This document shows, one piece after another, positions 63,479-64,000 of a DNA stretch of 64,000 bases. Below the pieces are notes generated by a model that worked only from the letters and a program-made list of their open reading frames with translations, did not search any database and was not told the DNA's origin. Origin of the DNA: Rhodanobacter sp. B04 (GTDB taxonomy: Bacteria > Pseudomonadota > Gammaproteobacteria > Xanthomonadales > Rhodanobacteraceae). Made by a program: the position numbers and the translations under genes. Numbering within the stretch: position 1 is the first letter of the stretch; each line of letters opens with the position of its first letter. The DNA is taken from the NCBI RefSeq assembly GCF_002001125.1, contig NZ_MUNV01000026.1, positions 124,001 through 188,000 of the forward strand, in the 5' to 3' direction.

Positions 63479-63507
63479 TTGACAGGCAATTTGGGCTAAA
63501 CTAGCGT
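63479..63507 (+). promoter_or_regulatory. Candidate thrS promoter
   Basis: Perfect TTGACA (63479-63484), a 17-bp spacer and TAGCGT (63502-63507), which keeps the T, A and final T of the -10. Start would be near 63514, giving a 150-nt leader. Confidence 0.5.
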
Positions 63508-63564
63508 TTCGGCATTATCCACAAGACCTAAGGTGGCCCGCGCTTCGCCGGCCGAGTGTGCGAC

Positions 63565-63591
63565 ATGGCAACTACACGCTGCTCCCGCTGA
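63565..63591 (+). CDS. Putative thrS leader peptide MATTRCSR
   Basis: Eight-codon frame (ATG to TGA) with two adjacent Thr codons, ACT ACA, in the leader between the promoter and an intrinsic terminator. A GAG lies eight bases upstream of the ATG, a weak ribosome binding site. The arrangement suggests leader-peptide attenuation by threonyl-tRNA supply, but so short a frame could be chance. Confidence 0.4.
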   Translation: MATTRCSR

Positions 63592-63622
63592 TACCCACGA
63601 CGCCTTGTGCTTTTATTTGAAG

Positions 63623-63642
63623 AAGGGCGGATGCCCTTTTTT
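63623..63642 (+). terminator. Intrinsic terminator in thrS leader, likely attenuator
   Basis: AAGGGC (63623-63628) and GCCCTT (63633-63638) with a GGAT loop and a run of six Ts (63637-63642), 21 bp before the thrS ATG. A further imperfect hairpin, GGCCcGCG with CGCcGGCC (63535-63553), lies upstream. A terminator in a leader implies read-through control. Confidence 0.75.
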
Positions 63643-63663
63643 GCTTTTCAGAGAATGCTTCCC

Positions 63664-64000
63664 ATGATTGAGATCACCCTACCCGACGGCAGCAAGCGGC
63701 CGTTCGATCATCCCGTTACCGTGCAGGACGTGGCCGCCTCGATTGGCGCCGGTCTGGCCAAGGCCACCCTGGCCGGCAGGGTTGACGGTCAGCTGGTGGA
63801 TGCCAGCTTCCTGATCGAGCGCGATGCCAGCCTGCAGATCGTCACCGACAAGAGTCCCGAGGCGCTGGAAATCCTGCGCCATTCCACCGCGCACCTGATG
63901 GGGCAGGCCGTGCAGCGGCTGTATCCCGGCGCGCAGGTCACGATCGGCCCGGTGATCGACAACGGCTTCTTCTACGATTTCGCCTACGAGCGCCCGTTCA
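63664..64000 (+). CDS. thrS: Threonyl-tRNA synthetase, N-terminal part
   Basis: First 112 residues of threonyl-tRNA synthetase, cut by the window end. The TGS domain comes first ([20 protein letters not shown]), then the start of the editing domain with [18 protein letters not shown] and [10 protein letters not shown]. It charges tRNA-Thr and hydrolyses Ser-tRNA-Thr. infC is expected downstream in relatives. Confidence 0.95.

Follow-up and report, generated by a model that had tools for sequence, protein, structure and literature searches.

A probable threonine leader-peptide attenuator upstream of thrS in Rhodanobacter and across the order Xanthomonadales

The threonyl-tRNA synthetase gene thrS is a textbook example of a gene whose translation is regulated by its own product, an aminoacyl-tRNA synthetase. 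In Firmicutes thrS is controlled by the T-box, which senses the charging of tRNA-Thr and works through a terminator. A further mode of control is seen in the pheST attenuator of E. coli and its relatives, in which a leader peptide rich in cognate codons (PheM) is followed by an antiterminator/terminator before the synthetase operon. Proteobacterial attenuators were reportedly surveyed by Vitreschak et al. in 2004. In the literature pheST is named as the gammaproteobacterial example of leader-peptide attenuation of a synthetase, and attenuators of this type, known or predicted, are given for trpS and leuS in Streptomyces (PMC1262725); leader peptides of hisS are described in bacilli (PMC2965389). 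For thrS itself one report proposes a threonine leader peptide, thrL, upstream of the gene in Streptomyces lividans TK24 (PMC8079986). We found no report in the open literature of leader-peptide attenuation of thrS in gammaproteobacteria; an earlier prediction is possible, subscription papers having been mostly outside the search. Here we analyze the thrS leader of Rhodanobacter sp. B04 and conclude, with a probability of about 0.88 and on the strength of comparative sequence evidence, that it is a ribosome-mediated transcription attenuator sensing charged tRNA-Thr, which controls thrS and probably infC-rpmI-rplT along with it.

The window, i.e. the whole analyzed stretch of 64,000 nucleotides of contig NZ_MUNV01000026.1, ends inside thrS (Table 1). 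The identity of this gene is unambiguous in profile searches (TIGR00418 score of 713.8 bits vs a cut-off of 383.65; open frame of 657 aa), and its ThrRS places Rhodanobacter and Dyella species as the nearest named relatives. By the open reading frames thrS is followed downstream by infC, rpmI and rplT, and its divergent upstream neighbor, on the minus strand, is an ORF resembling an NAD-dependent epimerase. From 5' to 3' the leader comprises a promoter, a hairpin (P1), the ORF MATTRCSR, a segment termed region 2 and an intrinsic terminator, after which thrS begins. We gathered thrS leaders at the levels of genus, family, order and class, and used shuffled sequences and the other 19 amino acids, in place of all genes of the genome, as the controls for enrichment.

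Table 1. Features of the thrS leader in the window
Feature	Positions	Strand	Basis
Promoter: -35 TTGACA (63479-63484), 17-nt spacer, -10-like TAGCGT (63502-63507)	63479..63507	+	sequence, conservation
Region 1: CACAAG (63520-63525) and AAGGTGG (63530-63536), complementary to region 2	63520..63536	+	fold, complementarity
P1 hairpin GGCC-C-GCG-cuu-CGC-C-GGCC	63535..63553	+	covariation
Leader ORF ATG GCA ACT ACA CGC TGC TCC CGC TGA (MATTRCSR)	63565..63591	+	conservation
Region 2: CGCCTTGTG, pairs with region 1 or region 3	63601..63609	+	fold, covariation
Intrinsic terminator (regions 3 and 4): GAAGAAGGGC ggat GCCCTTTTTT	63619..63642	+	folding, conservation
thrS, threonyl-tRNA synthetase, from its ATG	63664..64000, runs beyond window end	+	TIGR00418, ORFs

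Examination of the distinct leaders of the window's family recovered the leader ORF in 127 of 133. It is exactly eight codons long in 115 of these 127, and a stop codon is kept in all of them (119 TGA, 4 TAG and 4 TAA). The two Thr residues of MATTRCSR stand at codons 3 and 4; among the 115 eight-codon ORFs codon 3 is Thr in 111 (97%) and codon 4 in 99 (86%), the third base of the latter being free (51 ACC, 39 ACG, 6 ACA and 3 ACT), and the amino acids at codons 2 and 5-8 vary. A GTG frame from 63558, which also contains Thr-Thr, was set aside on the sole basis of conservation, since the codons and stop of the ATG frame are those kept in the relatives. The terminator stem (63619-63628/63633-63642), with the U-run inside its 3' arm, folds at -13.3 kcal/mol (z -5.1; 0 of 200 shuffles as stable); 21 bases separate its end from the ATG of thrS. 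We detected a terminator in 126 of the 127 family leaders, lying 18-34 nt past the leader stop in 125 of the 126; a few genomes have the leader ORF with no detected terminator. The promoter pattern TTGACA-N16-18-TAnnnT occurs in 75 of 107 family leaders vs 0.65 expected from shuffles and sits about 85-90 nt upstream of the leader ORF, and in the window transcription would be expected to start near 63514. A simple scanner reported neither a promoter nor a terminator at this leader, which is a limit of that scan, as the -10 element is weak and the T-run is swallowed by the stem. The original prediction for this DNA, made from the window alone, had pointed to the promoter-like TTGACA, the eight-codon frame with its two Thr codons and a terminator 21 bp before thrS, and all three hold up against the relatives. 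It had also named the loss of the Thr codons with the terminator retained as an observation that would speak against it; such cases are few, a single Thr codon being left in 11 of the 127 family ORFs and zero in none.

To compare lineages we applied a uniform test for an ATG-initiated ORF of 5-16 codons containing Thr-Thr or Thr-x-Thr, with a terminator 5-45 nt past its stop. This combination was found in 80 of 91 family genomes, in 30 of 40 genomes from other families of the order (Xanthomonadales) and in 0 of 60 genomes of other gammaproteobacterial orders. The same test run with each of the other 19 amino acids gave at most 8 of 91 in the family and 2 of 40 in the other families, and the combination turned up in about 4% when the bases ahead of the terminator were shuffled. 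The leader sequences of the other families are often unrelated and not alignable, and sometimes lie directly behind a tRNA gene, and the Thr ORF and terminator are still there. Their predicted peptides include MTRTFAH, MSTRTFPR, MTRTACNA, MTRTGTPD, MSTTTAQR, MRTTTMAIH, MKTTTKN, MCQQATTTTTP, MNVSFRTTT, MASTLTTVD and MRYTRTTSDAPS. The comparison of relatives that the original prediction had asked for thus finds that the Thr codons and terminator have been kept across the family and that the two recur together in other families. We regard this apparent convergence of independent leaders on Thr, the substrate of the enzyme encoded downstream, as the strongest individual line of evidence. In the sampled genomes of families f10 and f6 (loci L255, L256 and L257), also of this order, neither a Thr leader ORF nor a ThrRS operator motif was found before thrS. 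A class-wide search for the motif AGGTGGCC..GTGYGACATG matched only this Rhodanobacter genome, and this form of the leader was accordingly unseen beyond the order in that sample.

These collections also yielded several observations on how the leaders are built. The leader lies directly downstream of a tRNA gene at loci L235, L236, L239, L243 and L245 and at other loci of the order, and the tRNA-adjoining leaders have a small GTTC...GAAC hairpin ahead of the ORF. In families f3 and f4 the leader starts with a conserved GGAGCCGTAGTTCGAA(A/C)GAACACGATCACC, followed by ATGACGCGAACC. At L071, L073, L086, L158 and other Dyella and Rhodanobacter loci the attenuator and thrS are separated by inserted repeats of the form CCGGCCATCCATGGCCGGA / GCCCGCCGTCCAGGCGGGC, which in several genomes puts 170-245 nt between the leader ORF and the start of thrS.

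The P1 hairpin ends 11 nt before the ATG of the leader ORF in essentially all relatives. None of 500 shuffles reached its observed covariation, 96% of the cells are paired and four pairs have changed on both sides, which by comparative evidence makes P1 a genuine RNA structure; its loops are GNRA in many relatives. In other gammaproteobacteria, including E. coli K-12 (L352), hairpins of the form GTGGCC/GTGATC-YYTCGT-GGTCAC are found directly before thrS. A strict pattern for this ThrRS operator was recovered in 27 of 60 genomes of other orders (more by eye), E. coli being positive, vs 0 of 40 other-family genomes of the order and 2 of 91 family genomes, where the hits are apparently spurious. 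In other orders (L261-L320) the E. coli ThrRS operator is matched by GTGGCC-YYTCGTAxG-GGTCACCACTGGAGA, which many thrS leaders have immediately ahead of the start.

These features raise the question of whether P1 is a mimic of tRNA-Thr, so that bound ThrRS would block translation as in E. coli. P1 is indeed strongly conserved and adjoins a start codon, its arms GUGGCC...GGUC resemble the operator arms of other gammaproteobacteria, and the ribosome-binding site of E. coli thrS is likewise split by a hairpin (PMC3858243). However, the loops of P1 are GNRA or short rather than an anticodon-like CGU loop, the start codon that it precedes is that of the leader ORF and not of thrS, and the operator motif beside thrS is missing from the order as counted above. 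As autoregulation would further leave the Thr codons and the terminator unexplained, we consider it improbable, even if it is the best placed of the alternatives. Given that the operator arms GTGGCC and GGTC resemble the P1 arms in the window's family, P1 may instead be a remodelled ThrRS operator; and with the operator present in other gammaproteobacteria and missing here, the order seems, as judged from these motifs, to have exchanged translational repression for attenuation. The contrast that the original prediction drew with the control of E. coli thrS, by ThrRS bound to its own mRNA leader, was in this respect right.

An attenuator further needs alternative RNA states. Two segments show complementarity to region 2, namely the AAGGTGG ahead of P1 and the arm of the terminator. 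In the unconstrained fold of the full window leader, P1 and the terminator form together with a region 1:2 helix (63520-63525/63604-63609). When the RNA is folded from 63584 as far as the terminator loop, it gives a predicted antiterminator, 63601-63606/63624-63629, at -10.1 kcal/mol. The window is therefore predicted to fold into both states that attenuation needs. In the Xanthomonadaceae covariation makes a clear case, at the level of aligned sequences, for the antiterminator pairing of regions 2 and 3: the mean helix is 4.67 bp vs 3.70 (SD 0.15) when permuted, a value reached in 0 of 1000 permutations in which 30 distinct loops were represented once each, a procedure by which the kinship of the genomes is not fully removed. 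The pairs between region 2 and the terminator loop in these genomes include CGAGG/CCTCG, CCAAG/CTTGG, ATTGGC/GCCAAT, CATGA/TCATG, CCGAAGC/GCTTCGG and GCCAGGC/GCCTGGC. In the window's family the 2:3 covariation is marginal (17 of 500 permutations), and the stability of the 2:3 duplex does not exceed that obtained with dinucleotide-shuffled spacers (mean rank 0.43), probably owing to the C-rich spacer and the G-rich arm. Of the conserved antiterminator anticipated by the original prediction, the part that stands is thus that in the Xanthomonadaceae, and the antiterminator of the window's own genome is a predicted fold.

For the pairing of regions 1 and 2 the complementarity is above shuffles (mean rank 0.17), and covariation in fixed alignment columns is not above shuffles, perhaps because bulges shift the register; we accordingly treat the 1:2 helix as putative. 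The AGGTG in region 1 could serve the leader ORF as its ribosome-binding site. AAGGTGG has the look of such a site, and in family f12 it stands directly before the ATG. Since AAGGTGG both resembles a ribosome-binding site and pairs with region 2, initiation at the leader ORF and formation of the 1:2 helix may compete.

In light of the above, two further interpretations can be weighed, each of which we hold to be very improbable. In the first, the terminator works independently of translation, ending a small RNA or keeping thrS constantly low, with the ORF there by coincidence. The promoter and terminator do bound a 130-nt unit and the fold indicates a strong terminator, but the frame, Thr codons and stop of the ORF are kept throughout the family and reappear in leaders of unrelated sequence, with no enrichment for any other amino acid. 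In the second, the leader ORF acts on thrS through translation, by coupling or re-initiation, rather than through transcription termination. Such a role would suit a short, conserved ORF placed ahead of a synthetase gene, and also the long stretch from terminator to thrS in some family leaders; against this, a terminator lies between ORF and thrS in nearly all, the leader stop precedes the thrS start by about 70 nt or more, a distance beyond the reach of ordinary coupling, and the antiterminator covariation points to the terminator. A T-box finds no backing, as the window leader has no Rfam match at E <= 1 and 16 related loci gave nothing at gathering level in Rfam apart from tRNA.

The preferred reading, attenuation by a translating ribosome, is supported by comparative sequence in the translated Thr ORF, its linkage to the terminator, P1, the promoter and the Xanthomonadaceae antiterminator, and it can be put together as follows. 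A ribosome would translate the eight-codon leader close behind RNA polymerase, with the RNA presumed to fold in the following order. When Thr-tRNA is plentiful it would reach the stop codon and cover region 2, whereupon the terminator would form and transcription would end before thrS. A ribosome at a stop codon covers roughly 10-12 nt beyond it, and hence the start of region 2; the near-constant distance from leader stop to region 2 (about 10 nt in the window and 10-13 nt in 80 of 89 anchored family leaders) fits a ribosome at the stop covering region 2. When Thr-tRNA is scarce the ribosome would stall at codons 3-4, where by its geometry it would be abutted by P1, and the exposed region 2 would pair with the 5' arm of the terminator as an antiterminator, allowing thrS to be transcribed in response to the lack of threonine. 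With no ribosome on the leader, region 2 would pair with the upstream region 1 and the terminator would form. As the leader has just two Thr codons, the stalling could be weak. It is also conceivable, if doubtful, that the order as a whole uses minimal leader peptides, for the most part of 5-10 codons with their control codons at the beginning, in which P1, held at 11 nt ahead of the start codon and abutting the stalled ribosome, replaces the usual region 1 in the coding part, with P1 perhaps a remnant of the operator and the order having switched control by rebuilding the same leader.

The whole order, including the Xanthomonadaceae, appears to have replaced the ThrRS operator by leader-peptide attenuation, and such a change would be a clean natural swap of regulators at a single essential gene. 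To our knowledge these leader peptides are among the shortest proposed for amino-acid sensing and would help in finding the smallest number of codons with which attenuation can work, and the order-wide alignment offers directly testable sites. While the class of mechanism is known, the comparative sequence evidence provides good support for the thrS attenuator as a new and widespread case with unusually short leader peptides.

A close counterpart is pheST/PheM, also gammaproteobacterial, which shares the leader peptide with cognate codons and the antiterminator/terminator upstream of a synthetase; it differs in its amino acid and gene and in having 14 codons with a run of Phe, whereas the Thr/thrS peptide has 5-10 codons in most genomes, with 2-3 control codons near its start. 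The thrL of S. lividans resembles the present case in being a Thr leader peptide with two Thr codons upstream of thrS, but it is 18 aa long and on a leaderless transcript, has no clear terminator and comes from one organism of another phylum, and the accessible text gave no comparative or covariation evidence (PMC8079986). The trpS and leuS genes of Streptomyces (PMC1262725) and hisS of bacilli (PMC2965389) are likewise synthetase genes under leader-peptide attenuation, but for other amino acids, in other phyla and with unrelated leaders. The Firmicutes T-box differs in that the tRNA is read directly by the RNA, without a leader peptide. Finally, the E. coli thrS operator controls the same gene, also with a hairpin adjoining a start codon, but there ThrRS binds the anticodon-like hairpin and blocks the ribosome, without a leader peptide and without a terminator (PMC3858243).
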